64,000 nt of DNA from Zoroaster sp. YZ-2022 (taxonomy: Eukaryota; Echinodermata; Asteroidea; Forcipulatida; Zoroasteridae): positions 14,187,695 to 14,251,694 of the forward strand of contig CM055820.1 of NCBI GenBank assembly GCA_029582265.1, read 5' to 3'. The position numbers and the translations under genes were made by a program. A model generated the notes under the pieces. That model did no database searches, had not been told where the DNA came from, and saw only the letters and a list, made by a program, of their open reading frames with translations. This document shows positions 14,664 to 63,307 of this stretch, piece after piece (within the stretch, counting starts at the first letter, position 1; each line of letters opens with the position of its first letter).

Positions 14664-14842
14664 TTATCGAGGCACAAAACACACTTTAAAAGGTTTTGGA
14701 TTCCTTGTGAAGTCCAGTATCCCATCAGTAGTGGGTGGGGCCTCTCCTGGAGGGGTCTGTATTCTGAAGTGTTTTATTAGAGATGTGAAGAAGATGAAAA
14801 GTTCCATCTTGCCGAGTGATTCTCCCATGCAGGCTCGACGAC
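14664..14842 (-). CDS. P450 exon 6 (haem-binding loop, C-terminus)
   Basis: Begins after TTTATTAG with two bases completing a glycine codon, then RRACMGESLGKMELFIFF: haem Cys and L-helix. It ends in TAA. Residues 395-453. Confidence 0.93.
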
Positions 14843-26800: not shown

Positions 26801-28290
26801 GTCTTTATCCTCGAGGATAAAGACAGGCTCCTGGCATACCATTCAAGGAATTTCATTGGATACGTTGTGCTGAAGATCTGACATCACGCTTCGAGGCTCG
26901 CGCGCTAGCTATCAACCAAGGTCAAAGTTGAATCTCGGGGAAAACATGGCGGCTGCGGTCAGTATCTGGCGTAATTCACGAGCCTCAAAGCATGAAGTCA
27001 GATCTTCAGGCTAGTACAATGTACCACCGCAGCCTGAGGATCTGACGTCACGCTTCGAGGCTTGTGAATTACGCCAGATACCAGCCGTGCGCGTGCCGCA
27101 GAGATTCAACTTTGACCTTGCGCGCGAGGATGGGCGTCCACGCGCAATATCTTCAGCCATAGGCTATTTGGATCAGCGGAAGTATGCGCGCGCGTAGTAG
27201 AGTTACATTCGCCCGCAAGCCTCGAAGCATTAAGTGCGTGACGGAAGATCGTTGGCGCATAACTTATCCAATGAAATCCCTTGAATGGTACGTCTGGAGC
27301 CTGTCTCTATCCTTGATAGGATAAAGACATGGGTCCCAGTCTAGTACCACCGCAGTTATGGCGGCGCACAGAAAACTGGTCAACGGATTCGTCTATACCC
27401 AGTGAGCCAACAATAATATTATTATTCAAAAGGTTTTCTCTCGAATGCACGCCAATTCGAATCAAGACAATTCACCCAGTGAATTCGAAAATTATTTTGT
27501 ACATTTTGGATGCGATCGTGTCACAACCTCGTCTCATGATCTATGATCGTTTCCACAACAACCTCGTTCCCACCACTAGCCGTGGCGTCTATCACTAAAG
27601 GGAACGATGCAGACAGTGCACTTCTGGAATCCTGGATCCAACCTTGGAACCTCTAAGGATCTAGGTACAATCCCGGTAAACAATATGATGTTAACGATCC
27701 ACGGTTATGCATATGCCTTTTGCTCAACATGGCCGTAGATTGTCAAAAAGAGCTAGAATGATTTGTTTAATAAATAGCTATTCCCAATTTCCCTTCTGTT
27801 AGTTTGACCTGGCAATATCTCGAGAATGGTTCAGATCCGTCGCCGCACGCCGCATGATGGCGCTACACGGTTCGTGATTGTAGCGTTCGTGTAGCGCCAT
27901 TGGATCGTGTATCAAAAACATACAAACACAGTCTTGAACCAAGACTAGGTATGCAGAGGTCAACAAACCTCCTTCTCGTTTTTTTAAAATATAGATTCAA
28001 ATCTTACCTTTATAGTCTGGGTTATAGCGCTCAGCCGACGGATACCGCGGTTTATCGGCAAAGTCAAGCCCCTTCCTCACCAAGACCTCCCGTGCCGCTT
28101 CCCAACCGGTGACGAACACCACCCACCGACCCTCAATCTTAATGCTGAACACACTACCATATTCTCTGCATAACTCAACCCACTTGTTGAGAAATGCGTC
28201 GTTGTTACCGAAGTCAACCAGGCTACCGAGAAATGGAACTGTCTTTGGGCCCGGTGGAAAGTCATTTGTACCGGGTTGGTGATTCCCCAT
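14664..28290 (-). CDS. cytochrome P450, CYP2 clan, six coding exons found
   Basis: Haem-thiolate monooxygenase, expected on the ER membrane; the substrate cannot be predicted. Exons in transcript order: 28290-28008, 24733-24603, 23507-23040, 21764-21583, 16755-16637, 14842-14664. All junctions are GT/AG with matching phases, giving 453 aa. Landmarks: PPGP hinge (12-15), C-helix WKSQR (105-109), I-helix GAGTES (261-266), K-helix EIQR (318-321), a PERF-like NPGRF, the haem loop FSAGRRACMG with Cys399, and a C-terminal FVPR before TAA. The order and CYP2-type wording (LPYSQATLMEIQR, SVHRDPSIW) fit the CYP2 clan. The model begins only 11 residues before PPGP, so the usual 30-40-residue signal anchor is missing. 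An upstream stop in frame means the anchor would need an unseen 5' exon. No inactivating lesion was seen in the six exons. Confidence 0.92.
14907..16636 (-). other. P450 intron 5 content
   Basis: Holds a C-rich run at about 14909-14930, an unexpanded dispersed element at 14960-15350 and otherwise AT-rich DNA. Confidence 0.6.
14960..15350. mobile_element. dispersed element, unexpanded form (family E)
   Basis: GTTTACAAAAGAGCCCCAAA, then GTGCCGGGCACAAAATGTAC, then ACTGGTCTATGACAAGAAAC and CATCAAATCTGA. Read in reverse, this is the same sequence that flanks and composes the 32-bp array at 46.03-47.40 kb, here with only one copy of the 32-bp block. The ends are loosely complementary (GATGTGACC near the start, GGTCACGCAAAG near the end), suggesting a MITE. 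Confidence 0.8.
16637..16755 (-). CDS. P450 exon 5 (meander, before the haem loop)
   Basis: After TCTTCTCAG, one base completes Trp, then SVHRDPSIWSDPEAFNPGRF and a tail ending IPFSA. The donor is G|GTAAG. Phase 2 in and phase 1 out match the neighbours. Confidence 0.93.
18277..18488. mobile_element. MITE family C, copy 3
   Basis: Starts AAAGGGACAGTATCGTCAGG and follows the family body to CTGATCGTGACG. The last terminal bases are lost. Confidence 0.82.
18607..18713. repeat. 13-bp tandem array (TGTCTGTCCTGTT)n
   Basis: About eight near-identical copies of a 13-bp unit. 13 is not a multiple of three, so all frames cycle through the same residues and no protein is implied. Confidence 0.95.
18863..18938 (-). 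pseudogene. tRNA-Ala(TGC)-like pseudogene
   Basis: A 76-nt minus-strand segment reads GGGGATTAAGGCC at its 5' end, has an anticodon arm CTCGC-TTTGCAT-GTGAA with TGC in place, and carries a T-arm built on CCGGGATCGAATC. Length and anticodon loop match animal tRNA-Ala. However, the acceptor stem has two mismatches plus G-T pairs, the D-stem is broken and the T-loop has an extra base. It is probably a decayed tRNA copy or an orphan SINE head. Confidence 0.5.
20716..20835. mobile_element. MITE family A, truncated copy
   Basis: GCGGTGACACCATGTGGAAT, AGTTCTGAAAAGAACT, CTCGACGTTTCGATCAGTAT and GCTCTGATCG occur in the same order as at 50.04-50.16 kb. The left end is degenerate and the right half is absent. 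Confidence 0.8.
20935..21265 (-). mobile_element. SINE-like composite with widespread GGATGCCCTTCCTGACG block
   Basis: Contains GGTCGCCACAGCGGATCATG, CGGATGCCCTTCCTGACGCA and CCCATTTATCCGGGCTTGGG, a block I recall as a common interspersed repeat in fish and other animals. It is joined to the local SINE body and a reverse A-box (CTAAACCGCTCGACCTTGGC). The orientation follows the tRNA-like part. Confidence 0.65.
21583..21764 (-). CDS. P450 exon 4 (K-helix)
   Basis: After TGTTGATAG, encodes VIENRYITWEDRHSLPYSQA and the K-helix EIQR, ending IPKGTEIWVNI before the donor G|GTAAGC. It is in phase 0 with exon 3. Confidence 0.93.
21765..23039 (-). other. P450 intron 3
   Basis: No element recognised. 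Contains a C run near 22645 and a CT/GA-rich block at 22440-22570. Confidence 0.6.
23040..23507 (-). CDS. P450 exon 3 (D- to I-helix)
   Basis: 468 bp, phase 0 at both ends, residues 139-294. It carries the I-helix with GAGTES in place of the usual A-G-x-D/E-T-T, and ends HHEIKR. Vertebrate CYP2 genes split this region over several exons; here they are one. Confidence 0.94.
23800..24442. mobile_element. foldback element with ~250-bp arms
   Basis: The left arm, from ACACCCATCACAACTTCTAA to about 24050, recurs inverted from about 24190 to TTAGAAGTTGTAATGGGTGT, with roughly 90% identity by eye. The central spacer is about 140 bp. It sits in P450 intron 2 and would form a long hairpin in the pre-mRNA. 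Confidence 0.85.
24603..24733 (-). CDS. P450 exon 2 (C-helix)
   Basis: 131 bp, residues 95-138: GIFDAPCDDRWKSQRSF and LRSFGFGKGS, with the haem-propionate contact pattern W..xR. Acceptor CTGTAG, donor ACG|GTACGA. Confidence 0.92.
24734..28007 (-). other. P450 intron 1 content
   Basis: Holds a dispersed-repeat copy at about 25120-25215 (cousin of 12.05 kb), a small perfect hairpin near 25490-25518 (TTGCCCATAATTATATGGGC plus AA), C-rich runs near 26110, and the CpG-rich foldback at 26.8-27.3 kb. Confidence 0.65.
26790..27340. mobile_element. CpG-rich foldback element
   Basis: The outer arms are CTGGTCCCATGTCTTTATCC and, at the right end, GGATAAAGACATGGGTCCCAG. Inner arms repeat GATCTGACATCACGCTTCGA, GAATTACGCCAGATACCAGC and CAAGGTCAAAGTTGAATCTC in both orientations. 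The whole is an imperfect palindrome of about 550 bp with many CG dinucleotides, unlike its AT-rich surroundings. Confidence 0.82.
28008..28290 (-). CDS. P450 exon 1 of the model (proline hinge, A-B helices)
   Basis: Starts at ATG 28290 with MGNHQPGTNDFPPGPK and ends NPDYK before the donor G|GTAAGA. There is no hydrophobic anchor before the PPGP hinge. An in-frame TGA lies about 50 bp upstream of the ATG, so any anchor must come from another exon. Confidence 0.88.
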
Positions 28291-28827
28291 AGTCGAGTTG
28301 GAATTGAGACTTGTACGGTCACTTGGACCAGTTGGGGTTCATCTTTGAAATACCTTCTGCCACACCAGAAGCCTTCTGTTGAATTGTGTTTAGTTCATTG
28401 TAATAGTCAAAACAATTTTATGTTATCACCCTAGTTATCTAAAATACAAGCCTATAACTGAAATTATGAGACCTTGAACTTTCTTTATGCTTCCTATGCC
28501 TATTGTATAGCTTTATTGTCATCGCGCATGCAAACATACCTGCCGCATTGAGTTATACGGACGCTCGTTGGCGTACGTGCTTTCAACTCTGATAAAACCA
28601 TCGGGTGTTTGCGTTTGTAGATTGTGTTTGGCAAAACGTGAACCTTAAATCATTAAAGATCGTAACGTATTCACCACACTTTTTAAACATGGATTGACGG
28701 AGGCAGAACTCACAAGTAGACTCCAATTAATTGCAGTGGAGGCTATAACCATGCAGTAGTGTACTGTCTCTGACGACCGCTTCGAACAAGTCATTAGGGA
28801 CCATAAGAAGACCGTGCATGTAACTGA
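28291..28827. other. 5' flank of the P450 model
   Basis: Unique DNA. It may hide a short anchor-coding exon or the promoter; none is recognisable. Confidence 0.4.
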
Positions 28828-37067: not shown

Positions 37068-40000
37068 AGAAGGCTTATTAGTCTTATAAGGGAAGGTACA
37101 ACATTGGTAATTACCAGATTAGCTTATTAGTCTTATAAGGGAAGGTACAACATTGGTAATTACCAGATTAGCTTATTAGTCTCATAAGGGAAGGTACAAC
37201 ATTGGTAATTACCAGATTAGCTTATTAGTCTTATAAGGAAGGTACAACATTGGTAATTACCAGATTAGCTTATTAGTCTTATAAGGAAGGTACAACATTG
37301 GTAATTACCAGATTAGCTTATTAGTCTTATAAGGGAAGGTACAACATTGGTAATTACCAGATTAGCTTATTAGTCTTATAAGGGAAGGTACAACATTGGT
37401 AATTACCAGATTAGCTTATTAGTCTTATAAGGGAAGGTACAACATTGGTAATTACCAGATTAGCTTATTAGTCTTATAAGGGAAGGTACAACATTGGTAA
37501 TTACCAGATTAGCTTATAAGGGAAGGTACAACATTGGTAATTACCAGATTAGCTTATTAGTCTTATAAGGGAAGGTACAACATTGGTAATTACCAGATTA
37601 GCTTATTAGTCTTATAAGGGAAGGTACAACATTGGTAATTACCAGATTAGCTTATTAGTCTTATAAGGGAAGGTACAACATTGGTAATTACCAGATTAGG
37701 TCTTATAAGGGAAGGTACAACATTGGTAATTACCAGATTAGCTTATAAGGGAAGGTACAACATTGGTAATTACCAGATTAGCTTATTAGTCTCATAAGGG
37801 AAGGTACAACATTGGTAATTACCAGATTAGCTTATTAGTCTCATAAGGGAAGGTACAACATTGGTAATTACCAGATTAGCTTATTAGTCTCATAAGGGAA
37901 GGTACAACATTGGTAATTACCAGATTAGCTTATTAGTCTTATAAGGGAAGGTACAACATTGGTAATTACCAGATTAGCTTATTAGTCTTATAAGGGAAGG
38001 TACAACATTGGTAATTACCAGATTAGCTTATTAGTCTTATAAGGAAATACAACATTGGTAATTACCAGATTAGCTTATTAGTCTTATAAGGGAAGGTACA
38101 ACATTGGTAATTACCAGATTAGCTTATTAGTCTTATAAGGGAAGGTACAACATTGGTAATTACCAGATTAGCTTATTAGTCTTATAAGGGAAGGTACAGC
38201 ATTGGTAATTACCAGATTAGCTTATAAGGGAAGGTACAACATTGGTAATTACCAGATTAGCTTATTAGTCTTATAAGGAAGGTACAACATTGGTAATTAC
38301 CAGATTAGCTTATTAGTCTTATAAGGAAGGTACAACATTGGTAATTACCAGATTAGCTTATTAGTCTTATAAGGAAGGTACAACATTGGTAATTACCAGA
38401 TTAGCTTATTAGTCTTATAAGGGAAGGTACAACATTGGTAATTACCAGATTAGCTTATTAGTCTTATAAGGAAGGTACAACATTGGTAATTACCAGATTA
38501 GCTTATTAGTCTCATAAGGGAAGGTACAACATTGGTAATTACCAGATTAGCTTATTAGTCTCATAAGGGAAGGTACAACATTGGTAATTACCAGATTAGC
38601 TTATTAGTCTCATAAGGGAAGGTACAACATTGGTAATTACCAGATTAGCTTATTAGTCTCATAAGGGAAGGTACAACATTGGTAATTACCAGATTAGCTT
38701 ATTAGTCTCATAAGGGAAGGCACAACATTGGTAATTACCAGATTAGCTTATTAGTCTTATAAGGGAAGGTACAACATTGGTAATTACCAGATTAGCTTAT
38801 TAGTCTTATAAGGAAATACAACATTGGTAATTACCAGATTAGCTTATTAGTCTTATAAGGGAAGGTACAACATTGGTAATTACCAGATTAGCTTATAAGG
38901 GAAGGTACAACATTGGTAATTACCAGATTAGCTTATTAGTCTTATAAGGGAAGGTACAACATTGGTAATTACCAGATTAGCTTATTAGTCTTATAAGGGA
39001 AGGTACAACATTGGTAATTACCAGATTAGCTTATTAGTCTTATAAGGGAAGGTACAACATTGGTAATTACCAGATTAGCTTATTAGTCTTATAAGGGAAG
39101 GTACAACATTGGTAATTACCATATTAGCTTATAAGGGAAGGTACAACATTGGTAATTACCAGATTAGCTTATTAGTCTTATAAGGGAAGGTACAACATTG
39201 GTAATTACCAGATTAGCTTATTAGTCTTATAAGGAAGGTACAACATTGGTAATTACCAGATTAGCTTATAAGTGAAGGTACAACATTGGTAATTACCAGA
39301 TTAGCTTATTAGCCTTATAAGGGAAGGTACAACATTGGTAATTACCACATTAGCTTATTAGTCTTATAAGGGAAGGTACAACATTGGTAATTACCAGATT
39401 AGCTGATTAGTCTTATGAAGGGAAGGTACAACATTGGTAATTACCAGATTAGCTTATTAGTCTTATAAGGAAGGTACAACATTGGTAATTACCAGATTAG
39501 CTTATAAGGAAGGTACAACATTGGTAATTACCAGATTAGCTTATTAGTCTTATAAGGGAAGGTACAACATTGGTAATTACCAGATTAGCTTATTAGTCTT
39601 ATAAGGAAGGTACAACATTGGTAATTACCAGATTAGCTTATTAGTCTTATAAGGGAAGGTACAACATTGGTAATTACCAGATTAGCTTATTAGTCTTATA
39701 AGGAAGGTACAACATTGGTAATTACCAGATTAGCTATTAGTCTTATAAGGGAAGGTACAACATTGGTAATTACCAGATTAGCTTATTAGTCTTATAAGGA
39801 AGGTACAACATTGGTAATTACCAGATTAGCTTATTAGTCTTATAAGGAAGGTACAACATTGGTAATTACCAGATTAGCTTATTAGTCTTATAAGGGAAGG
39901 TACAACATTGGTAATTACCAGATTAGCTTATTAGTCTTATAAGGAAGGTACAACATTGGTAATTACCAGATTAGCTTATTAGTCTTATAAGGAAGGTACA

Positions 40001-43000
40001 ACATTGGTAATTACCAGATTAGCTTATTAGTCTTATAAGGAAGGTACAACATTGGTAATTACCAGATTAGCTTATTAGACTTATAAGGGAAGGTACAACA
40101 TTGGTAATTACCAGATTAGCTTATTGGTCTTATAAGGGAAGGTACAACATTGGTAATTACCAGATTAGCTTATTAGTCTTATAAGGAAGGTACAACATTG
40201 GTAATTACCAGATTAGGCTTATTAGTCTTATAAGGAAGGTACAACATTGGTAATTACCAGATTAGCTTATTAGTCTTATAAGGAATGTACAACATTGGTA
40301 ATTACCAGATTAGCTTATTAGCCTTATAAGGAAGGTACAACATTGGTAATTACCAGATTAGCTATTAGTCTTATAAGGAAGGTACAACATTGGTAATTAC
40401 CAGATTAGCTTATTAGTCTTATAACTATAAGGGAAGGTACAACATTGGTAATTACCAGATTAGCTTATTAGTCTTATAAGGGAAGGTACAACATTGGTAA
40501 TTACCAGATTAGCTTATAAGGGAAGGTACAACATTGGTAATTACCAGATTAGCTTATTAGTCTTATAAGGGAAGGTACAACATTGGTAATTACCAGATTA
40601 GCTTATTAGTCTTATAAGGGAAGGTACAACATTGGTAATTACCAGATTAGCTTATTAGTCTTATAAGGGAAGGTACAACATTGGTAATTACCAGATTAGC
40701 TTATTAGTCTTATAAGGGAAGGTACAACATTGGTAATTACCAGATTAGCTTATTAGTCTTATAAGGGAAGGTACAACATTGGTAATTACCAGATTAGCTA
40801 TTAGTCTTATAAGGGAAGGTACAACATTGGTAATTACCAGATTAGCTTATTAGTCTTATAAGGGAAGGTACAACATTGGTAATTACCAGATTAGCTTATT
40901 AGTCTTATAAGGGAAGGTACAACATTGGTAATTACCAGATTAGCTTATTAGTCTTATAAGGGAAGGTACAACATTGGTAATTACCAGATTGGCTTATTAG
41001 TCTTATAAGGGAAGGTACAACATTGGTAATTACCAGATTGGCTTATTAGTCTTATAAGGAAGGTACAACATTGGTAATTACCAGATTAGCTTATTAGTCT
41101 CATAAGGGAAGGTACAACATTGGTAATTACCAGATTAGCTTATAGGAAGGTACAACATTGGTAATTACCAGATTAGCTTATTAGTCTTATAAGGAAGGTA
41201 CAACATTGGTAATTACCAGATTAGCTTATAAGGAAGGTACAACATTGGTAATTACCAGATTAGCTTATTAGTCTTATAAGGAAGGTACAACATTGGTAAT
41301 TACCAGATTAGCTTATTAGTCTTATAAGGGAAGGTACAACATTGGTAATTACCAGATTAGCTTATTAGTCTTATAAGGGAAGGTACAACATTGGTAATTA
41401 CCAGATTAGCTTATAAGGGAAGGTACAACATTGGTAATTACCAGATTAGCTTATTAGTCTTATAAGGGAAGGTACAACATTGGTAATTACCAGATTAGTC
41501 TTATAAGGGCAGGTACAACATTGGTAATTACCAGATTAGCTTATTAGTCTTATAAGGGAAGGTACAACATTGGTAATTACCAGATTAGCTTATAAGGGAA
41601 GGTACAACATTGGTAATTACCAGATTAGCTTATTAGTCTTATAAGGGAAGGTACAACATTGGTAATTACCAGATTAGCTTATTAGTCTTATAAGGGAAGG
41701 TACAACATTGGTAATTACCAGATTAGCTTATTAGTCTTATAAGGAAAGGTACAACATTGGTAATTACCAGATTAGCTTATTAGTCTTATAAGGAAGGTAC
41801 AACATTGGTAATTACCAGATTAGCTTATTAGTCTTATAAGGAAGGTACAACATTGGTAATTACCAGATTAGCTTATTAGTCTTATAAGGGAAGGTACAAC
41901 ATTGGTAATTACCAGATTAGCTATTAGTCTTATAAGGGAAGGTACAACATTGGTAATTACCAGATTAGCTATTAGTCTTATAAGGGAAGGTACAACATTG
42001 GTAATTACCAGATTAGCTTATTAGTCTTATAAGGGAAGGTACAACATTGGTAATTACCAGATTAGCTATTAGTCTTATAAGGGAAGGTACAACATTGGTA
42101 CTTACCAGATTAGCTTAATTATTAGTCTTATAAGGGAAGGTACAACATTGGTAATTACCAGATTAGCTTATTAGTCTTATAAGGGAAGGTACAACATTGG
42201 TAATTACCAGATTAGCTTATTAGTCTTATAAGGGAAGGTACAACATTGGTAATTACCAGATTAGCTTAATTATTAGTCTTATAAGGGAAGGTACAACATT
42301 GGTAATTACCAGATTAGCTTATTAGTCTTATAAGGGAAGGTACAACATTGGTACTTACCAGATTAGCTTAATTATTAGTCTTATAAGGGAAGGTACAACA
42401 TTGGTAATTACCAGATTAGCTTATTAGTCTTATAAGGGAAGGTACAACATTGGTAATTACCAGATTAGCTTATTAGTCTTATAAGGGAAGGTACAACATT
42501 GGTAATTACCAGATTAGCTTATTAGTCTTATAAGGGAAGGTACAACATTGGTAATTACCAGATTAGCTTATTAGTCTTATAAGGGAAGGTACAACATTGG
42601 TAATTACCAGATTAGCTTATTAGTCTTATAGGAAGGTACAACATTGGTAATTACCAGATTAGCTTATTAGTCTTATAAGGGAAGGTACAACATTGGTAAT
42701 TACCAGATTAGCTTATTAGTCTTATAAGGGAAGGTACAACATTGGTAATTACCAGATTAGCTTATTAGTCTTATAAGGGAAGGTACAACATTGGTAATTA
42801 CCAGATTAGCTTATTAGTCTTATAAGGGAAGGTACAACATTGGTAATTACCAGATTAGCTTATTAGTCTTATAAGGGAAGGTACAACATTGGTAATTACC
42901 AGATTAGCTTATTAGTCTTATAAGGAAGGTACAACATTGGTAATTACCAGATTAGCTTATTAGTCTTATAAGGGAAGGTACAACATTGGTAATTACCAGA

Positions 43001-43100
43001 TTAGCTTATTAGTCTTATAAGGGAAGGTACAACATTGGTAGTTACCAGATTAGCTTATTAGTCTTATAAGGGAAGGTACAACATTGGTAATTACCAGATT
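37068..43100. repeat. 6-kb satellite, 49-bp unit with frequent 40-bp variants
   Basis: Roughly 125 direct copies of CTTATTAGTCTTATAAGGGA followed by AGGTACAACATTGGTAATTA and CCAGATTAG. Shorter units lack TTAGTCTTA; other variants have TCTCATAAG, GGAAGG for GGGAAGG, or AATTATTAG. Each unit contains two palindromes, CTTATAAG and GGTAATTACC. Variant types occur in runs, for example several TCTCATAAG units near 37.8 and 38.5 kb, which indicates segmental duplication of blocks. No open frame. Confidence 0.98.
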
Positions 43101-43244
43101 ATAAAATTACCTAATTATTTTCAGTGGAATTTGTCGAATTGAAAGTTGCCATATGTCATTGCGATGAAATATTGACAGGTTTGTATTTTATCATGATAGT
43201 TCTTCTTGAAAGATGGAGGTGTGAAATGAACTAGTTACCAAATA

Positions 43245-44145: not shown

Positions 44146-44385
44146 TTAAGACGTGGAATTAATTTCTCGAGAGCTCTTTTCTCGGGAACAAGATTTCTTC
44201 TTTGAGGAGCATGCCATCCACTTACATGTACCGTCATCACACGATGAAGAACACGTCATTTGTTGCACGATCATAAACCCATACCTACGTTGCATTACGC
44301 ATCCATAACCGAGAAGTGCCCCCTGTAAGTCACCGAAACAGTACTGCTCTGGATCTTCTGTCTGTTCAACGTAGCATCTCACTAT
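44146..44385 (-). CDS. TIMP-like exon 4 (C-domain)
   Basis: Begins after CACTAAACAG in phase 0 with IVRCYVEQTEDPEQYCFGDL. It includes LLGYGCVMQRRYGF, where TIMPs have their conserved C-domain turn, then CSSSCDDGTCKWMACSS and a basic Ser-rich end with TAA at 44146. Confidence 0.87.
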   Translation of the reverse strand: MVRCYVEQTEDPEQYCFGDLQGALLGYGCVMQRRYGFMIVQQMTCSSSCDDGTCKWMACSSKKKSCSREKSSREINSTS

Positions 44386-47300
44386 CTGTTTAGTGAATAT
44401 CAAGAAATAGGATACCGGTAATTGTTACAATTACTCAATGTCGTAAAGAGTTAATTCAACAATTCGAACGTTCGAACGAGTCCAAAACGTCCAAAACACA
44501 ATCTGCACAAGTAAAGACTGTTTGCGGTGACACCATGTGAAATTCTGAATTCAGGAGAAGATCAGAGCATACTGATCGAAACGTCGAGTTGTAACCACCT
44601 GTTCTTTTCAGAACTTATTACTACTCAATTGACAATTTCATATGGTGTGACCGCAAACAGTCTTTACTTATCCTTTTCACCATGCAAAGCTACAAGTTGC
44701 ACAAATTGCACAAATATGCCTATACATTTTAGATGGCGAAGCGTGAAACCAATGCAAATTCGTACGCCGAATGTTAATTTTGTCTAGTTGGTAACTTCAT
44801 GTCATTCGTGTGACCATGTGTTCTCACCTCACAGCGGCAGCTGTTAGCATACGCCCCAGTTAGGCCGTGTTTTTGTTGGGCACTCAGCATAGATCGTGGT
44901 TGGAACCATGAACACCCCCAAATGAAGTTCAGTTGATTCTCCACGAAGGTATGTCTTCCAAGCATAAGTTGACTGGCGCAGTAATCGATGCCTTGTGGTA
45001 CATTCTTCAAGTGGACAAATCCTTCAGATTACAACAGATTGGACATTAACAGGTGCGTACACTAAAGACTCGTCTGGCAATCTATAGACCATACTACTTT
45101 GCGTGACCAGGGTGCATGGGCGTAAATCCCGGGAGATGGAGGGGATATATATACCCCCCCCCCCCCACTTTTTGGCCCGGGGTGGTTTAAGAGCTCACTT
45201 CTGTGAGAACGCCCCTATCCCTTCCATTAGCCCTCCCGCTCTGATACATTCTCCAGCAGCTGATCTGATTGGGCCTCGCAGGAAGGTTTGGGGGAGATGG
45301 TTTGGAACTGCTTTCCACTCTCTTTGGTGCAGTAAGCGTGCATGTTTTCACCTTGCTCACGATTGCAAGTGTAGACTGTGTGGCTCCGATGCCGCCCTCC
45401 GGCGCGAGCATCTTGTGCATTGTGAGTGGGTTTTAGCTGATTTTGTGGGTTTCGATGCCATTGAGCTCCTTAAACTTGAAAAAGTTCTCTATGCCTCCCG
45501 CTCCTCCCAGTAATCTTCTTGGGTGTCCTCCCCTTGTCATCAGAATTCAGCCTTGCTGTTGTCCGTAGATTGTGTGTAGGTCATGTTGACCTTGTATTCT
45601 TTTTGAATAAATCGTTATACAACAACAACAACAATAGAATCATCCCCCTCCCCCCAGAATTTGTCGTTTGTTTAAATATTTTTATCGGTTTGCTTCTTTG
45701 TCCTGTTGGTTTAATGATTAGCTGTGCATCAGTGGCATAACAACAGTGGTTCAACCCACCCACCCCCCTTGGCATGCCGTTAAAAAATATTGTTTAAAAA
45801 ATAAATAAATAAAAAAGAGAGAGAAGAGAAGTGGTACACAAAGTGATGTTTTTTGCGGTGTTGGGGCTGGAGGGGGGTATCCCTCCGTTGACCGACGTTC
45901 GAAATCCAGTGCATAATGTAAACAAATTTCAATATCAGTATCAATATAGTTTTTAGATGAATAAGATGTGATGTAATGTTAGTGCCTTATTAAAAATAAA
46001 TCAAATTATGATCTTTTTCTGCTGATATCTCAAAATATCAGATTTGATGGTTTGTTGTCATAGACCAGTGTACATTTGATGGTTTGTTGTCATAGACCAG
46101 TGTACATTTGATGGTTTGTTGTCATAGGCCAGTGTGCATTTGATGGTTTCTTGTCATAGACCAGTGTACATTTGATGGTTTGTTGTCATAGACCAGTGTG
46201 CATTTGATGGTTTCTTGTCATAGACCAGTGTACATTTGATGGTTTCTTGTCATAGACCAGTGTACATTTGATGGTTTCTTGTCATAGACCAGTGTACATT
46301 TGATGGTTTCTTGTCATAGACCAGTGTGCATTTGATGGTTTCTTGTCATAGACCAGTGTACATTTGATGGTTTCTTGTCATAGACCAGTGTACATTTGAT
46401 GGTTTCTTGTCATAGACCAGTGTACATTTGATGGTTTCTTGTCATAGACCAGTGTACATTTGATGGTTTCTTGTCATAGACCAGTGTGCATTTGATGGTT
46501 TCTTGTCATAGACCAGTGTACATTTGATGGTTTCTTGTCATAGACCAGTGTACATTTGATGGTTTCTTGTCATAGACCAGTGTACATTTGATGGTTTCTT
46601 GTCATAGACCAGTGTGCATTTGATGGTTTCTTGTCATAGACCAGTGTGCATTTGATGGTTTCTTGTCATAGACCAGTGTACATTTGATGGTTTCTTGTCA
46701 TAGACCAGTGTACATTTGATGGTTTCTTATCATAGACCAGTGTACATTTGATGGTTTCTTGTCATAGACCAGTGTGCATTTGATGGTTTCTTGTCATAGA
46801 CCAGTGTACATTTGATGGTTTCTTATCATAGACCAGTGTACATTTGATGGTTTCTTGTCATAGACCAGTGTACATTTGATGGTTTCTTGTCATAGACCAG
46901 TGTACATTTGATGGTTTCTTGTCATAGACCAGTGTGCATTTGATGGTTTCTTGTCATAGACCAGTGTGCATTTGATGGTTTCTTGTCATAGGCCAGTGTA
47001 CATTTGATGGTTTCTTGTCATAGACCAGTGTACATTTGATGGTTTCTTGTCATAGACCAGTGTGCATTTGATGGTTTCTTGTCATAGACCAGTGTGCATT
47101 TGATGGTTTCTTGTCATAGACCAGTGTGCATTTGATGGTTTCTTGTCATAGACCAGTGTGCATTTGATGGTTTCTTGTCATAGACCAGTGTGCATTTGAT
47201 GGTTTCTTGTCATAGACCAGTGTGCATTTGATGGTTTCTTGTCATAGACGTACCAGTGTGCATTTGATGGTTTCTTGTCATAGACCAGTGTGCATTTGAT

Positions 47301-50300
47301 GGTTTCTTGTCATAGACCAGTGTACATTTTGTGCCCGGCGCAGTTTGACCTTTGGGGCTCTTTTGTAAACATGTGATTGTGATGTAATTGGTCACATCAT
47401 CTATAATACGGAGACCCAGGCGCATAGCCAGTAATCTGACAAGGGAGGGGCGGCGAAAAATGTTTGAAAAAAGTAGCCCCAGCTAAATTTTTGCCAAGAA
47501 ATGTCTTTGGTTGCGGTCATAGAACAACTACTCCCACCCTCCCTTATACGGCATAATTGTTTTGCTAGAACAATGCACATCCAAGAATGTATAATGCTGA
47601 TTTACTTGAAGCCCTCTCACGGAAGGATCTTCAGACACGTTGGCATCAGTGGCGGACCGTCAGGGGGGGCTGGGGGGGCAGCCGTCCTTCGGCCCGGAGG
47701 GGGGGGGGGGCCCGGACCCCCCTCCCCAAAGAATGTTTTTTTTTTATGTTTTTTTTTTACATTCTGGTGGGGGTGGTTGGGGTGGTTGGGGGACCGGGCC
47801 CGAGCTGGAACTTACACAAATCAACCGGGCCCTTTCTTTATTTTGAGCTCCCCTGAAAACATGAAGTGTAATCATGACGGGTCTCTCGGAAATCACGTGT
47901 GGTTAGGGAATGATGCCTGGGGGGCCCGACCGTGCGCTCTGTCCCCCCGGCCCGGCGGTAACTTGTTCCGCTACTGGTTGGCATGATCATAGGGATGTAT
48001 GATGTTTATTAATTGTCGTAATAAGCTCGTTCCACAATATCTTAGTGATCGTTTTGTCTTGTCATCTCACTTTATCAACACTCGTTCCAAAACTAATGGC
48101 AATTTCTGTATGTCTACTGCAACTGTGACATTTTATTATTGTCCCTCCCCAGGATTTCTGTATTTTTAATAAATAATAATTTTTATTTTCCTTCTTCGTT
48201 TTGATTCTACTTTTCATTTTATTTTGTTTCTGTATTTTATTTTAAATGCAGGACCCTCAAGTAATTTCCAAAATTAATTTCATGTAAGACAGAAATTCAA
48301 CATTGGAATGAAAACAAAATCATGGATCCGCATGACTCGTACAGGCCCCACGGTATGACTCGTACGGGCCCCACGGTATGACTCGTACGGGCCCCACGGT
48401 ATGACTCGTACGGGCCCCACGGTATGACTCGTACGGGCCCCACGGTATGACTCGTACGGACCCCATGGTATGCAAAGATATTTGCCAGATGAGGATAAAG
48501 GATGTCATAACTGATAATGTATACAAATTTGAATGAAATTTGCTTGGAATATGCATTTATAAACATGAGTAAACAAAACAAATACTAAACTTACCAGAGA
48601 AGACATATGATTGCCGTACATCAACCCTCAGACGTGTCACTTGACTAGTAACCAACACCACGGTGTTTCCTTGCTTGACCAAGCCCCGGCCCTTGAACAC
48701 GCGTTTGACTTTAACCACTAAGACCGTGACATTGGCTGGAAGTTGGTGGGTCTTGGCCGATGATTGAGACCAAATTATAAATTTTGGACGATTATGCAGT
48801 GATAAGGAAGACTTCATTATCCTCAGTACTTTGCCTATCAATACTGTGTGCGAAAATTAAAATAATAACTTGGTAATAGTTACATTTGTGTAAAGGGAAG
48901 GTACAACAAAATGCCTGCAAAACTTCTTCAATTGGTATGATTACTTTCTTCAAAACTTCTTCAATTGGTATGATTACTTTCTTCAAAACTTCTTCAATTA
49001 GTATGATTACTTTCTTCAAAACTTCTTCAGTTGGTATGATTACTTTCTTCAAAACTTCTTTCTTCAAAACTTCTTTCATACCAATTGAAGAAGTTTTGAA
49101 AGTAATCATACCAATTGAAGAAGTTTTGAAAGTAATCATACCAATTGAATTTTAATAATCATACCAATTAAAGTTTTGAAAGTAATCATACCAATTGAAG
49201 AAGTTTTGAAGAAAGTAGTCATACCAATTGAAGAAGTTTTGAAGAAAGTAATCATACCAATTGAAGAAGTATTGAAGAAAGTAATCATACCAATTGAAGA
49301 AGTTTTGAAGAAAGTAATCATACCAATTGAAGAAGTTTTGAAAGTAATCATACCAATTGAAGAAGTTTTGAAAGTAATCATACCAATTGAAGAAGTTTGA
49401 AGAAAGTAATCATACCAATTGAAGAAGTTTTGAAGAAAGTAATCATACCAATTGAAGAAGTATTGAAGAAAGTAATCATACCAATTGAAGAAGTTTTGAA
49501 GAAAGTAGTCATACCAATTGAAGAAGTTTTGAAGAAAGTAATCATACCAATTGAAGAAGTATTGAAGAAAGTAATCATACCAATTGAAGAAGTTTTGAAG
49601 AAAGTAATCATACCAATTGAAGAAGTTTGGAAGAAAGTAATCATACCAATTGAAGAAGTTTGGAAGAAAGTAATCATACCAATATTGAAAAAGTTTTGAA
49701 AGTAATCATACCAATTGAAGAAGTTTTGAAGAAAGTAATCATACCAATTGAAGAAGTTTGGAAGAAAGTAATCATACCAATATTGAAGAAGTTTTGAAAG
49801 TAATCATACCAATTGAAGAAGTTTTGAAGAAAGTAATCATACCAATTGAAGAAGTTTTGAAAGTAATCAATTTGACATCAAGTACTACCTTTATCACTTT
49901 GACATCAAGTACTACCTTTATTACTTTGACATCAAGTACTATACCTTTCCGATAATAATTCAGTAATTTGGTAATAATTACTAATGTTGTACCTTTCAAC
50001 TAAGATTTGTAGCTTTGTATGGTGAAAAGGATAAGTGAAGACTGTTTGCGGTCACACCATGTGAAAAAATTCTCTTTTGAGTAGTAATCACTGAGTTCTG
50101 AAAAGAACTGGTGGTTACAACTCGACGTTTCGATTAGTATGCTGTGATTGTCCACCTTTCCTTTAAATAGATGTTACTGGCTTCATTTTTTCAACGCTGA
50201 GCTAGCATATAGAGTAAATTAGAGAAACAAGCTATATATAAATTGTTAATGGAGGTCATACTTTTAGTAATCAAAAAAGAAATAAATGCTCATAGTTTTA

Positions 50301-52970
50301 AATAAAAGGCGATCAAACTTCCCTCACAATTGTTCTGTCCGAGGTGTAATAATTTTGACAAAATAAATAAAGTAATAATTTCTTGACGACTTCATGAGAC
50401 AAACAAAATCCACGTTGGAATGAATACGAAATGCATTTTCACTATTTTCTTATAAATGGCACAATAAAAACAATATGAAATTTTTACAGGATGGTTTCTG
50501 TTTACGTCACGGTTCATCTCTTGATTCTTACAGAGTATTGAAACATTTTACAGACATTTTACTAAAAGTGTCATGTATACTGGCTTTAATTAATTATAGA
50601 GGAACATTATTATCATATGTTGTATAAATTATATACAACAAATTTGAAACACACAACCAAAATTTAGCAGTGTCAAACTTGAAGTAATTTAACTCTTATA
50701 GACCATGGAGTAAGTGGTACGCGCGCCGTGACTTGGACCAAACTCGGACCAAATTATCGTGTCGTACAACAACCACCCTATTCCCAAATGTTTGTACGAT
50801 GGTAGTCCGATGGGCTCCATCAGACGTCCTGTAACTTTACACGAAAATTCCACGTCAGAATGAATGCAAACTATTTTAATGCATTTTCATTTTTTTCTCG
50901 TTAACGAAATAAGCTGATACTTCCTGTTGATTCATGGATGCATTTACACACTCTTCCAAACATTGAAGTCAATGGATTCCATTAGGTTGTTCGCAATAAA
51001 AGATTCATGTTACTTGCTGGTTGTTAAATTCATTTAATTTACTAACGAATTTTCAAAGAACATCATTTTTTAACGAAAATAATTCCTTCACACGAATTTT
51101 TGGGAAACATATTCGATCGATGTTATTATAAATTTGTAAAGAAATATTAAATTCAAGAAATCATAGTTATTGTTTGTTAGCTTCAGTGGAATTTGTCAAG
51201 ACTGACGTTTATCCCCTTTTCTTTTTGCAGTAAATTTTCTGGAAGAAAACTTAATTAAGGCAGATTTTATTTATGTGGATTATTTAACAGCTCAAGGAAA
51301 GTTTGGTTAAAATTTCACACTATTTTGAATGCGGATATTGTTTTTTTTAGCCAATTACGCCACTTAAGACAGGTCTCAAATAACGGTTAAATTGTAATAT
51401 AATTTATATTTTTCATCCAAAAAGCTTCAAAAGAAAATTTATAACTTTGTTATTGAAGGTGACATTTTTTTAGATTACGTACATTTTTTAATATAAATAA
51501 ATACATTCATTTAGGCATTAAATAATTAAATGTTCCAGCTTCTGACAATAATTCTTATGTGAATAATTACATTTATGATATATTTGTTTCTCTTTCTAAA
51601 AAGAAAATAACAGTGTTCCGATTAAAACAAAATCCTCCCAGAAATCAATGACAAACCAGGTGATAAATTTGTTGTTAAAGTTTGTTGTTAATTTCCGGAT
51701 ATTGTTTTATTTTCATCTAAACATTTCTACGGTACGTTACATGCTTTAAAATGACGCATTTCTCAAAATAATCGTGGGAAGCATGGGAATCGTGAAAATT
51801 ATTGATGGTAAAAAAATAAACAATGAAATATCTTGTGCAATATTGTAATTAAAAGGTTAATTTATGCAGTTACGGAGAAAGGATGTAAATTATACTCCTC
51901 AATGGAGACATAAATATTTCAAAAGATTTTTAATGCCATCATCTACTTTACACCAAAATAATGACATAAAACATTATTTGAGATATTTTTTTCTTTCGAG
52001 AATACCACTGTTTTATAGGTGCTTCGACATGTACACGTTTTATATTTTGTTGTTTGCAAACAAATGCATTAAGATTGATTGTATTCCACTCAATAGAATT
52101 TATTATGTGTCCGGAAGGTAACACTTCATTTGCAAAATCTTTACACAACTTTACACAAATAACCTTCCTGAGAAATAGCAGAATACCGTGAGTACTATAC
52201 ATGCTTCCGATTGGAATACGTTTTATTACAAGACAAGATGGAATTTGCAATAAATGTGAGTCTAAATAATAACATATGATGATCGGAATTATAGTTAAAA
52301 GGGTTTGGAAGATTGGAATAGAATGTTGGCAGGCAAGTTGCGGTTTGTAAGCAGCCACACAGCTGGTTTAAAAACGGTACATTCTGTTTTTGAAAGTAAG
52401 GACCCTCAACTTGCCACTGTAAATTTATTCCTAAATAAGATTTTTAATTAAGATGGGCCTCTATAGGTACTTTCGTAATTTCTGCATAAATTCGTAATTT
52501 ATATTGATTTGTCTTTGGAAAATGAAAACAAAAATATTTTCTAAAATCGGACCCGTAGGCCTATAACACGGAACATTCTTCCTTCGGTGGAATAACGTGA
52601 CAAACAGTACGGGTTTTGCAAACATAACTCAGTGAAGGGTTTAAATTTAGGGGTAAACGTGACACCACACCCTCCAATTTGGGATCCCCAGTAAAAATAA
52701 ACTCGCCAAAATTTGAACCCAAGACGGCCATAAGTGAATGTTAGGGCTACTCGCCTCAAATTACCTTTCTTTTCTTTATTTTATTGAGAGCTGAATCCCA
52801 TTCCTACATTGGTCATAATCCCAGGTCCGCAATTGTTACTTACCAAAGTCCGCTTCACAAAATAATTCCTGTGGGTGTTTGTCAACGAAGAAGTCAGACA
52901 CCTCCAAACTGCCGACGGCTGGCTGACACCATACTAAAGCTAAGAGTAGATACCACTGTAGGAGCAACAT
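44146..52970 (-). CDS. TIMP/tensilin-like secreted protein lacking the N-terminal CxC, four exons
   Basis: TIMPs inhibit matrix metalloproteinases; the sea cucumber TIMP relative tensilin binds and stiffens collagen fibrils. Exons: 52970-52844, 48735-48595, 45021-44828, 44385-44146. All are GT/AG with phases 1, 1 and 0 consistent, giving 233 aa. Residues 1-20 form a signal peptide. HPQELFCEADF (32-42) matches TIMP HPQ-x-x-F-C-N-x-D around Cys13; NVTVLVVKVKRVFKG is the first NTR strand. Cys104, Cys126, Cys151 and Cys153 match TIMP positions 70, 99, 124 and 127. The last exon is a cysteine-rich C-domain (YGCVMQRRYGFMI; CDDGTCKWMAC) ending in a Lys/Ser-rich tail. The zinc-chelating Cys1-x-Cys3 is absent (Asp26-Phe-Phe28 there), so classic protease inhibition is not expected. 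The introns are packed with repeats. Confidence 0.87.
44511..44667. mobile_element. MITE family A, complete copy
   Basis: TIRs GTAAAGACTGTTTGCGGTGA and, inverted at the right end, GACCGCAAACAGTCTTTAC. The interior includes GATCGAAACGTCGAGTTGTA and GTTCTTTTCAGAAC. Flanked by TCCTTTTCACCATGCAAAGC, which is also seen next to the copies at 50.0 and 55.6 kb and so may belong to the element. It lies in TIMP intron 3. Confidence 0.88.
44828..45021 (-). CDS. TIMP-like exon 3 (end of NTR domain)
   Basis: Residues 90-154: IDYC (Cys104), the LGRHTFVENQLNFIWGCSW strand pair, LSAQQKHGL (TIMP L-S-x-x-Q-R/K-x-G-L) and SCRCE. Acceptor CTGAAG, donor GAG|GTGAGA. The acceptor was chosen by phase and is the least certain border. 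Confidence 0.83.
45103..45600 (+). mobile_element. non-LTR retrotransposon-like 3' fragment
   Basis: A frame includes CRLCGSDAALRREHLVHCEW, a C-x2-C...H-x-x-x-C knuckle like those at the C-terminus of several LINE polyproteins, and then LLKLEKVLYASR. It is followed by AATAAATCG and (CAA)n, as a LINE 3' end would be. Preceded by a C run and CGTAAATCCCGGG. Inside TIMP intron 2. Confidence 0.5.
46034..47400. repeat. 32-bp minisatellite (~40 copies) inside a family E element
   Basis: Unit CATTTGATGGTTTCTTGTCA plus TAGACCAGTGTA, with A/G variation at the last-but-one base and a few GTTTGTTG early units. The array is followed by TTTTGTGCCCGGCGCAGTTT, GGGGCTCTTTTGTAAACATG and GGTCACATCATC: the reverse of the unexpanded element at 14960-15350. 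Located in TIMP intron 2. Confidence 0.97.
47560..48140 (+). mobile_element. LINE RT C-terminal remnant split by a hAT MITE
   Basis: The upstream part encodes ADLLEALSRKDLQTR. After the MITE the frame resumes, with a shift, as FINCRNKLVPQYLSDRF and NTRSKTNGNF, the familiar L-V-P-x-Y-L...NTR pattern at the end of LINE RTs. The 8-bp duplicated target shows where the MITE interrupted it. Confidence 0.65.
47647..47976. mobile_element. hAT MITE with 8-bp TSD GTTGGCAT
   Basis: Starts CAGTGGCGGACCGTCAGGGG and ends TTCCGCTACTG. Flanked by GTTGGCAT at 47639-47646 and 47977-47984. CAGTGGCGGA-type ends and an 8-bp duplication are hAT hallmarks. The interior is GC-rich with G runs. Confidence 0.88.
48335..48470. 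repeat. 23-bp tandem array, six copies
   Basis: ATGACTCGTACGGGCCCCAC plus GGT, nearly perfect, in TIMP intron 2 about 125 bp from exon 2. Confidence 0.95.
48595..48735 (-). CDS. TIMP-like exon 2 (first NTR strands)
   Basis: After ACTTCCAG, the exon completes Ala43 and encodes NVTVLVVKVKRVFKGRGLVK and further to SYVFS, then donor G|GTAAGT. Phase 1 to phase 1. Confidence 0.86.
48890..50000. repeat. ~33-bp array with internal inversion, nested in a family B element
   Basis: Units such as GAAGAAAGTAATCATACCAA plus TTGAAGAAGTTTT, 27-33 bp. Up to about 49075 they run in the opposite orientation (CTTCAATTGGTATGATTACT); beyond that they are direct, so the junction is a palindrome. The outer borders are AAAGGGAAGGTACAAC (48893) and GATAATAATTCAGTAATTTG...TAATGTTGTACC (to 49993), the two ends of family B. 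In TIMP intron 1. Confidence 0.93.
50005..50160. mobile_element. MITE family A copy
   Basis: GTGAAGACTGTTTGCGGTCA, GTTCTGAAAAGAACTGGTGG and CTCGACGTTTCGATTAGTAT. Preceded by TGGTGAAAAGGATAAG. The right TIR is missing. Confidence 0.82.
50161..52843 (-). other. remainder of TIMP-like intron 1
   Basis: 2.7 kb of AT-rich unique DNA. The short open frames near 51.9-52.4 kb have no recognised domain. Confidence 0.55.
52844..52970 (-). CDS. TIMP-like exon 1 (signal peptide, HPQ-FC motif)
   Basis: ATG at 52970. MLLLQWYLLLALVWCQPAVG is the signal peptide, followed by SLEVSDFFVDKHPQELFCEA and DF, then donor G|GTAAGT. A second in-frame upstream ATG was not seen; the Leu-rich start supports this one. 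Confidence 0.87.
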
Positions 52971-60600: not shown

Positions 60601-62582
60601 GATTGACATACATACGTATAATGCAGATGTAATTTCCCCAATCTTCCATCTATGTGAGCTTGGTTCAAATCCCACCATGCACATATTGTTATTCGTAAGT
60701 CTTTCTGTTTATCATTAGAGTTCATAAATCAAGTTATAATTCAGCCATGCCCTAGTCTAGAGGACATGTCTAGGCTGGGTTGTTGATGTTATAGCAAGAG
60801 TTTTCGACAAATAGTTAAATGTTCAGTAGTTTAAAGCCATGTTCATTCATTTGTGAACCAATCCAATAATCGATGTGATAATATTGACTGGTCAGGCATT
60901 AACTTCTGGTTTTTGTTTGCTGGTTTTTGTTTGCCACATGTACAGCTAGCACTACACACTAACCACACCTGGCAAACCCACAATTACAAAGTGCAAGCAA
61001 AAGTTGCTCCATTTGCCAGCTATTGTGCACAGCGTCTATTCATAATGTTGAAACAGATGTTGCTGAACAAACAACAGCTGCTGACTATTGAGCCATGAAA
61101 TTGAGGCTTGTGTATATCAATGTCCGAAGAGTACAGGTAGTGAATTTCTAGTTTTATTGCCTTGTGTTGTTTGTCAATTAATTATTATTTAAGATTAAAT
61201 CTAAATTTAGCTTTATTGATTATTTTGTTTTTCTAAAAGTTTTTTGTCTAGCATCTGTCCTCCTCATCTGTGCCTTATTTTCAGTTTTTCTGTTGTGATA
61301 ACATGTTGGTTGCATATATTTCTTGGCCACTGTAGAGTTGAAATGAACCAACCAATGTTGTACATGTACCTTTCCTTTGTAGTGGTCTGTTTTTATGGCA
61401 TTTGTACATAACTCAAGGGATGAAGGTTGCATCTTTTCAGTAAAATTTTGGTTTTATTTTTGATCATGCTTTGTAGGAAATCAGAGATGAACCAAGTGAT
61501 GACTGATGTAGACAATGAACATCCACAAATACTGCACACCGACTTAAGAACTGAAACTCTGCAAAATAATCACCTCATTAAACTGAAGAATGATGACCCA
61601 GAATTTAGCTTCAGGAAGAATGATTTATTTGTGCCGTCGGTATGTTCTCTCTGAGTAATTGGCTCATTTGAGGGAAGGTATAACATGTGTAATTACCAGA
61701 GGATCAAATTAACAACTTTTATCTAAAAAGTTACTTAGTGTAAAGTTGGTAAAATAATTTTGTTGGAAAATATTTGGTAATTTATTTTCCACGCATACAT
61801 CAAATGTTCACAGTGGTTATTTAGAAGAAAAAAACAATTCATGAGCGGGTCATCTAGAAATCCATGGAGCTTGTATCAGTAACCCTTTGTAGGAACTGTA
61901 TAAGTTGAGAAAGTTAAAGGGGAAATACAACATTGAAAATGTTGGCTAAATTGCTTCCATGGTTATCCTTACTTTCTTTGAATTAGTGAAACGTTCAGTT
62001 GAGTAATGAATGTAAGTCATGAGATTAGTGTTTTCACATTTTGTACAGAAAACACTTGGAGTAAAAAGTTGCTGTCAGCAACCTTTGTGTAACGGCATAG
62101 CATTTTTGTTTGAATATTCTCTGAAATGAAAGCACTTAAGATGGGTAATTTTGTAGGATGATTGGTACATGTACCTCACCAATGTCACATCAAGTTAACT
62201 TTCGGATAATAATTTAGTTAAATTACCAATGTTGCATCTGTCCTTTAAATAGTTTAATTTGATATTTCTAAATAAAATTCACTGGTAATTTCAGAATGAT
62301 TTCCCTGTTAAAATTGTAAGCACAAATGCAGTCAGTATCGTTTTATTGCATTTTAATAAATATTTGTCTTAACTTTTTTATGAATATTAATTTTTTTCTC
62401 TCAGAAATGTCCAACATCTATTCAAAAAAAGCTATCCAATATGTCTTGGACATCTGAGCTATACCATCCAGAGATCAAGCAACTGCTTACAAGTACCGAC
62501 ATCAGTGTGGAAGAATACAATAGACTACTCCATTACTGGATGCCTTTTGGCTTCAAATATCACCAAAATTTCACATATAAAG
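57688..62582 (+). CDS. probable GT29 sialyltransferase (ST6GalNAc-like), 5' part, three coding exons
   Basis: Exons 57688-57815, 61477-61639, 62405-62582; GT/AG borders and phases 2 and 0 agree. 156 complete codons lie in the window. The start MRVPCDRRVRIG and hydrophobic IFLLVTVLTIYVFL (11-27) make a type II Golgi anchor. The second exon is a polar stem. The third reads CPTSIQKKLS, W-x-x-x-LYHP, EEYNRLLHYWMPFGF. This resembles the region before sialyl motif L in ST6GalNAc enzymes (C-P-x-S...W...L..P...E..RL...PFGF), which add alpha-2,6 sialic acid to GalNAc. The sialyl motifs themselves would lie beyond the window, so the call rests on the stem junction only. Sequons: N109 and N152. An acceptor CAG just before the ATG implies an upstream non-coding exon. 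Confidence 0.72.
58085..58457. mobile_element. MITE with GGTATCCGGATACCC palindromes
   Basis: The left end AAGGCTGTGCAGGGTATCCG and right end AAAACGCACAGCACTAGC are inverted relatives. The interior repeats ACCCGGTTCC and GGGTATCCGG. hAT-like by its GTGC ends; no clear target duplication. Confidence 0.65.
59176..59294. repeat. 12-bp tandem array (GGTCCTGAGGTG)n
   Basis: Ten units, a few with GGGGG or GTACT variants. The frame gives GPEV repeats but has no coding context. Confidence 0.94.
59465..59605. repeat. 48-bp tandem repeat, three copies
   Basis: TACCCACCAAGTTATGGCCA, then AAGTTCCTGCCCACCATACA and CCAATGTA, three times. Confidence 0.94.
60252..60515. mobile_element. MITE rich in TAACCAG/GGTTAAC
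   Basis: Left ACTAGTGTTAGGACAGTTAA and right AACAGTTAGATAACTAACTAGT are loosely inverted. The interior has repeated GCTAACCA. Borders approximate. Confidence 0.5.
61665..62260. mobile_element. MITE-like family B copy in sialyltransferase-like intron 2
   Basis: An isolated end motif at 61672 (GAGGGAAGGTATAACATGTG) is followed at 61916 by AAAGGGGAAATACAACATTG. The family body then runs to AAATTACCAATGTTGCATCT. The body aligns with 43245-43600. Confidence 0.75.
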
Positions 62583-63307
62583 GTACAAATCAAATTATTT
62601 CACAAATTACTTTTCAACCTACAGAGGACGGAAATTCCAGAGAATTTATACAAAATCTGAATATCTGAAACTTGAACAAGTTTGTTTTTATACATATCTC
62701 TTGATTCTTAATATCAAAATATGGATGTATTTTACCAAAAGTGTGTACTGGTTTTAACCATGCTTTTGACAATAGCAATTATTTTAAACAATTTTTTCCC
62801 TCTCCACTGTTAAAATCCTTATTGATTTAAAACAAAAATGTCGGGGGAAAAAGCAAGAAAAGTTTTACAAGTTAAATTATTTGTTTGTCACTAACACCTG
62901 CTTGATACAAATTCCAGACACGGTGTTCATTTACAAGTTAAATGGTTCTCTTTTAATCAATAAATCATTCCAGAACCATCAACATGATAACAATTATCAG
63001 GAGTGTTCAGTGTTCTTTTAATATTATTTAACCAACCCAAGCACACTTTTATTCTCATTAATAAATACCTGTAGTGATTTCGGTTTCAAAGTTTCAGACA
63101 CTGCAAATTCACATGGAAACACTTGCAAAGTGTACGAGTCAGTGTGATGCGAAACAAACTTCATCACTCTGATTGGTTAAATTTTTTGACGTACTGTGGT
63201 AAATGTAACAGCTGGGGCGACTCCTCTTTACTGGCTGTTAATACACCCCCACGTGATCAGATTGTATAATCCGTCTTGAGCATTTCATTAATAAATCATC
63301 ATTTTAA
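62583..63307. other. sialyltransferase-like intron 3 (start)
   Basis: AT-rich DNA downstream of the GTACAAAT donor. No further exon recognised before the window ends. Confidence 0.5.

Follow-up and report, generated by a model that had tools for sequence, protein, structure and literature searches.

In the tissue inhibitors of metalloproteinases (TIMPs), the N-terminal segment is anchored to a pair of loops by the disulphide bridges Cys1-Cys70 and Cys3-Cys99. The passages on TIMP-2 in PMC3779175 describe the binding of the catalytic zinc by the amine and carbonyl groups of Cys1, and an N-terminal segment disulphide-linked to the loops that fill the cleft. In echinoderms, the standard C-X-C motif was reported for 121 of 144 TIMPs (PMC5897022), and the 70% consensus sequences presented in PMC4807446 for asteroid and crinoid TIMPs lack the first cysteine and keep the second in both groups. 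A class of echinoderm TIMP-like proteins without the N-terminal C-X-C is already published: the 2021 review PMC8467561, in its treatment of these proteins, records them in several species as having arisen repeatedly, and its group IV contains crinoid and asteroid TIMPs only. We describe here a predicted gene of the TIMP family in a stretch of 64,000 nucleotides (hereafter referred to as the window) from the starfish Zoroaster sp. YZ-2022 (contig CM055820.1, positions 14,187,695 to 14,251,694). It lies on the minus strand of the window, from 52970 to 44146, and its four exons give an open frame of 269 residues. On its sequence characters, we consider it somewhat probable that this four-exon gene, which lacks Cys1, Cys3 and Cys70, and has Cys99 and a new cysteine within an insert, encodes a non-inhibitory extracellular ligand rather than a zinc-chelating inhibitor. 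The features of the predicted gene are as follows (window positions).

52844..52970, minus strand: exon 1, with the start codon, a signal-like stretch, DFFVDK, HPQ and Cys38 (equivalent to Cys13), ending in phase 1
52878..52895, minus strand: codons of DFFVDK, aligned to TIMP residues 1-6, with Asp in the Cys1 column and Phe in the Cys3 column
48595..48843, minus strand: exon 2, strands A-D, with zero cysteines, ending at YVFS-G in phase 1, as in the paralogues described below
44828..45021, minus strand: exon 3, an insert of about 24 residues with the new Cys140, followed by Cys162 (equivalent to Cys99), Cys187 and Cys189
44978..44980, minus strand: codon of Cys140, the new cysteine (Cys104 in the initial annotation), from sequence and alignment
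44912..44914, minus strand: codon of Cys162, equivalent to TIMP Cys99 (Cys126 in the initial annotation), from sequence and alignment
44146..44385, minus strand: exon 4, the C-domain with the canonical Cys194, 206, 219, 235 and 244, a basic tail and the stop codon

Introns 1 and 2 are in phase 1 and intron 3 is in phase 0; their donors read GTAAGT, GTAAGT and GTGAGA, respectively, every acceptor is AG, and all four exons were matched by tblastn with the Asterias rubens protein P0001 (E values of 1e-5, 7e-24, 7e-27 and 6e-25). The open frame, the GT/AG borders and these matches uphold the four phase-consistent exons first proposed, with one correction: the acceptor of exon 3 was placed at 45021 rather than 44991, because the segment that it adds, GFVHLKNVP, aligns in all three starfish orthologues (as GFVHLKNVP, GFVRIANVP and GFVHLANVP). 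The 44991 acceptor (model B) is in phase and gave a slightly better Pfam score (57.6 versus 56.1 bits), yet was rejected. The Pfam TIMP profile (PF00965) matched the protein with 56.1 bits (cutoff 23.1), beginning at profile position 8, that is, without the CxC. The hydrophobic N-terminal stretch was judged signal-like by eye, as were the signal peptides and cleavage points of all six proteins considered below, rather than by a prediction program, and the product is probably secreted; the original assignment to a likely secreted TIMP-family protein thus stands. Three extra, non-canonical cysteines (Cys239, 249 and 256) are encoded in the basic tail of exon 4. A decaying pseudogene or an artefact of the gene model is scarcely credible, given the open frame, the intact splice borders, the intron positions common to the paralogues and the five annotated relatives; decay is also disfavoured by the conservation of the HPQ edge. 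In tblastn searches with the relatives, no further TIMP copy was detected within the 64-kb window, and no second copy of the gene was found in the genome among the best candidates, which alone were scored, the four matches being its own exons. Tandem repeats occur in and beside the gene: a 33-bp minisatellite in both orientations in intron 1 (48918-49869; reverse-complementing the unit at 49156-49861 gives that at 48918-49060), about 40 copies of a 32-bp unit in intron 2 (46042-47329) and, downstream of the gene (37073-43101), about 126 copies of a 49-bp unit, spanning 6 kb.

Relatives were sought among some 5.8 billion database proteins, by a search whose reach did not extend to remote homologues. 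The closest found were uncharacterised proteins of the starfish A. rubens (LOC117303287; 69% identity), Patiria miniata (LOC119722992) and Acanthaster planci (LOC110982155; 52% for each of the last two). A profile of the starfish proteins added a protein of Antedon mediterranea, and a search from the latter added an Anneissia japonica protein named ‘metalloproteinase inhibitor 3-like’, both species being crinoids. Like the window protein, all five have no CxC before KHPQE, no Cys70 and a cysteine in the insert; they differ from it in their tails, in the absence of the Cys124 equivalent from A. rubens, and in the cysteine that the crinoid pair carries at the likely cleavage point. The three starfish and two crinoid proteins are likely orthologues of the window gene. 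P0004, a 252-residue frame from a 1321-base ENA contig, matches only exon 3, where it is identical to A. rubens, and was kept out of all counts and trees. A full-text literature search for the three starfish locus names retrieved no paper mentioning them.

The window protein has no cysteine from the end of its signal-like stretch to HPQ, and a CxC in the canonical place before HPQ occurs in none of the six proteins (the window protein, three from starfish and two from crinoids). HPQ and Cys13 are nonetheless present in the N-terminal segment of all six, and the Pfam match starts at profile position 8 in each (48.6-72.2 bits for the five relatives). The CSC at residues 11-13 of the A. rubens protein falls within its likely signal peptide, more than 20 residues upstream of HPQ. 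The absence of CxC claimed in the initial annotation is borne out by these six sequences. An upstream exon supplying the motif was named in that annotation as the observation that would overturn the claim, and was looked for on the DNA: counting upstream from the HPQ codons in exon 1, the first AG is met at 24 nt (8 codons), so that no upstream exon joined at an AG acceptor can supply a CxC three residues before HPQ, and the candidate is excluded for acceptors of this type. As the N-terminal Cys1-x-Cys3 is found in none of the six, the window protein is best described as TIMP-related and not as a canonical TIMP.

The same genome, of 1.0 Gb, also carries ordinary TIMP genes. A tandem cluster of at least 10 of them occupies 15.90-16.04 Mb of the contig that holds the window gene (loci within 15892001-16052000), on the same strand and 1.65-1.8 Mb from that gene. 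A scan that set no cysteine requirement found 10 first exons with a phase-1 donor, and all 10 encode two cysteines before HPQ or HTQ (CxC in eight, CxxC in one and CxxxC in one). In each of the 10 second exons read, a Cys70 equivalent stands a short way ahead of intron 2. Where assembly extended through exon 3 (seven cluster genes), intron 2 is preceded by Cys70 at 14-15 residues and followed by Cys99 at 12-14 residues. Genes F, G and I, with an unclear exon border or no exon 3 found, were counted for exons 1 and 2 and left out of all trees; exon 4 was placed in genes A, E and J, the only cluster genes used in the full-length tree.

Cysteine columns were compared in an alignment of the six proteins with three cluster paralogues and four other TIMPs. 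Nine of the 12 canonical columns are filled in the window protein, the missing ones being Cys1, Cys3 and Cys70, and these three columns are without cysteine in all six proteins. In the Cys70 column, the four starfish sequences have leucine and the two crinoid sequences methionine, where seven paralogues and the four other TIMPs have cysteine. Cysteine is retained at Cys13, Cys99 and the seven C-domain positions in all six, save one position in A. rubens. Conversely, a new cysteine column is filled in 6/6 of these proteins and 0/7 of the other rows, and in every one of the six the new cysteine precedes the Cys99 equivalent by exactly 22 residues. The introns locate this change: intron 2 falls within YVFS-G in the window gene and at the matching place in the paralogues (YVLTG, YAITG and similar), but the distance from intron 2 to the Cys99 equivalent is 36 residues in the window gene and 9-14 in nine paralogues (two counted by eye). 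Because the paralogue introns place Cys70 shortly before intron 2, TIMP Cys70 belongs in exon 2, which has no cysteine in the window gene; Cys140, in the exon 3 insert, is therefore not TIMP Cys70.

The TIMP bridges 1-70 and 3-99 are thus impossible, as first claimed, Cys1, Cys3 and Cys70 being absent from all six proteins. The two cysteines described in the initial annotation as left over and free to pair (its Cys104 and Cys126) are likewise conserved in all six, but do not correspond to the Cys70 and Cys99 pair, Cys104 being the new Cys140. Since the other eight core cysteines have canonical partners, we infer by elimination that Cys140 pairs with Cys162; lacking canonical partners, these two would close an enlarged loop between strands D and E. 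The resulting arithmetic (12 - 3 + 1 = 10) gives exactly the number of cysteines after HPQ in the crinoid proteins. A rearrangement of the C-domain, with an old cysteine lost and the GxGC cysteine gained, was also considered and dropped, the C-domain cysteines sitting in canonical columns.

Phylogenetic trees were estimated with and without the columns that hold the shared traits. Full-length trees of 13 rows (the six, three paralogues and four other TIMPs), from which the N-terminal, Cys70 and insert columns had been removed, recovered the six together with support of 98/97 (mixture model) and 98/98 (LG+G4). N-domain trees of 17 rows without those columns gave lower values: 80/78, with the group recovered in 62% of LG+G4 bootstraps but not in the best tree under that model, and 65/70 after the removal of five long-branched rows. 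With all columns, the N-domain tree supported the group at 100/99. Separate losses of CxC in the crinoid and starfish genes, with no ancient lineage, would accord with these low N-domain values and with the repeated origin that PMC8467561 holds generally for CxC-less TIMP-like proteins, but would have to account for the full-length values, the all-column N-domain tree, and a common insert with its cysteine at exactly 22 residues from the Cys99 equivalent in 6/6; we regard such losses as improbable. A single lineage with one origin is favoured, short of proof, because ordinary TIMPs of crinoids, and any TIMPs of urchins, brittle stars or sea cucumbers, were not among the rows of these trees.

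Without Cys1, Cys3 and Cys70, the zinc-binding ridge would not form and canonical inhibition of matrix metalloproteinases (MMPs) would fail; this activity has likely been lost from the window protein. The HPQ edge is nevertheless the most conserved 20-residue stretch of the six sequences, with 12 of 20 positions invariant, a level reached in 10 of 5000 shuffles, and some binding role therefore seems to have been kept. The conserved VxKHPQExxCEADxV edge would, on our interpretation, bind another matrix partner, and a role as a matrix protein, as initially suggested, is plausible. The same conservation is what would be expected if inhibition of metalloproteases of the ADAM/ADAMTS kind, or inhibition via another edge, had been retained through the HPQ face without zinc chelation by Cys1. 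In the experiments on N-TIMP3 presented in PMC7283274, one alanine added before Cys1 abolished MMP inhibition and spared most aggrecanase inhibition, so that another class of protease might still be inhibited here. That variant, however, has all its cysteines, whereas both N-terminal staples and the Cys70 loop are absent from the window protein, and we judge retained inhibition to be unlikely.

Several observations weigh against the proposed loss of inhibition and exchange of cysteines. The conservation of the HPQ edge could signal retained protease binding, as the TIMP3 alanine variant illustrates. In the crinoid proteins P0005 and P0006, Cys21 coincides with the likely point of signal cleavage (A-C-HRYIAADSNFYV); located about 15 residues upstream of HPQ, it might become the N-terminus of the mature protein. 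The starfish proteins have more than 10 cysteines after HPQ (13 in the window protein, A. rubens and P. miniata, and 12 in A. planci), and other disulphide pairings are accordingly possible. In A. rubens P0001, the Cys124 equivalent, a cysteine in the window protein and the four other relatives, is replaced by asparagine (NSNRC, residues 188-192), and Cys13 would be left without its canonical partner in this protein. Profile comparisons were split, one aligning Cys140 with Cys70 and the other not; the equivalence of the two was rejected on the intron positions, with which the second comparison agrees. It was rejected despite the 22 residues from Cys140 to the next cysteine, a spacing that matches Drosophila TIMP. 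Finally, both AlphaFold2 models were poor, with a mean predicted local distance difference test score (pLDDT) of 44.1 for the P. miniata orthologue and of 45.4 for the other; a Foldseek search with the poor P. miniata model (pLDDT 44.1) ranked TIMP-2, TIMP-2, N-TIMP-3 and TIMP-1 at the top (best E value, 7e-4). With these points taken into account, we put just short of an even chance on the fuller history, in which zinc chelation would have been given up once, before the split between feather stars and starfish, three bridge cysteines exchanged for one in an exon 3 insert closing the enlarged D-E loop, and the resulting pseudo-inhibitor kept ever since as a matrix ligand.

The remainder of the window contains other recognizable frames. 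A one-exon frame of 459 residues on the plus strand (6846-8222) carries both guanido-kinase domains (PF00217, 197 bits; PF02807, 72 bits) and is perhaps a retrocopy. Fragments of one or more cytochrome P450 genes lie on the minus strand (14667-28338), where three frames scored above the Pfam cutoff (14667-14945, 22983-23561 and 28000-28338). A plus-strand frame at 62384-62665 had a sub-threshold XRCC4 match (16 bits; cutoff 26.2).

The initial annotation had linked the gene to tensilin, that is, to a stiffener binding and aggregating collagen fibrils. The descriptions in PMC10381214 assign tensilins to a holothurian clade in which the first two cysteines are kept, mostly with two or three residues between them, and in which the twelfth cysteine is followed by a hydrophobic region and then a hydrophilic part with two cysteines, the last flanked by K/R; PMC10053443 also describes tensilins and this tail. 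The window protein is a TIMP relative in an echinoderm, and its hydrophilic tail, like that of A. rubens, has extra cysteines, the last of which is flanked by lysine and arginine and resembles the fourteenth cysteine of tensilins. This basic tail is shared by none of the other four proteins (P. miniata, A. planci and the two crinoids). Moreover, the window protein has neither of the first two cysteines and no hydrophobic region after the twelfth canonical cysteine, and PMC10381214 and PMC8467561 report no tensilin-like gene in asteroids or crinoids. Membership of the tensilins was rejected on these published sequence characters, by description and with no tensilin sequence aligned; the claimed kinship gives way to starfish and crinoid proteins, rather than sea-cucumber tensilins, as the nearest relatives found. 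A tensilin-like function is judged improbable, and the tensilin reading is removed for this gene as far as sequence goes.

The literature text examined described neither a lineage common to crinoids and starfish nor this exchange of cysteines. The published view of repeated, independent origins of CxC-less proteins would be qualified, in that one lineage is seemingly common to crinoids and starfish. Echinoderms have many TIMP genes, and a conserved lineage with defined cysteine changes, single-copy beside ordinary paralogues, provides a clean test of a TIMP fold kept for a non-inhibitory job; if our interpretation is correct, a protease-inhibitor fold was moved to another job once and then held there. 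With canonical TIMPs (human TIMP-1 to -3, Drosophila TIMP and the cluster paralogues), the window protein shares PF00965, HPQ, Cys13, Cys99 and the C-domain cysteines and, with the cluster paralogues, intron positions 1 and 2, but it differs from them in having no Cys1, Cys3 or Cys70 and an insert of about 24 residues with a new cysteine. Sea-cucumber tensilins are also TIMP relatives, with a basic tail bearing extra cysteines like that of the window and A. rubens proteins, but, as described in the sources above, they belong to a holothurian clade, and have the first two cysteines and a tail with a hydrophobic region. The CxC-less echinoderm proteins treated in PMC8467561 have the same TIMP/NTR domain without C-X-C as the window protein; HPQ, missing in some of those described there, is kept throughout the window lineage.

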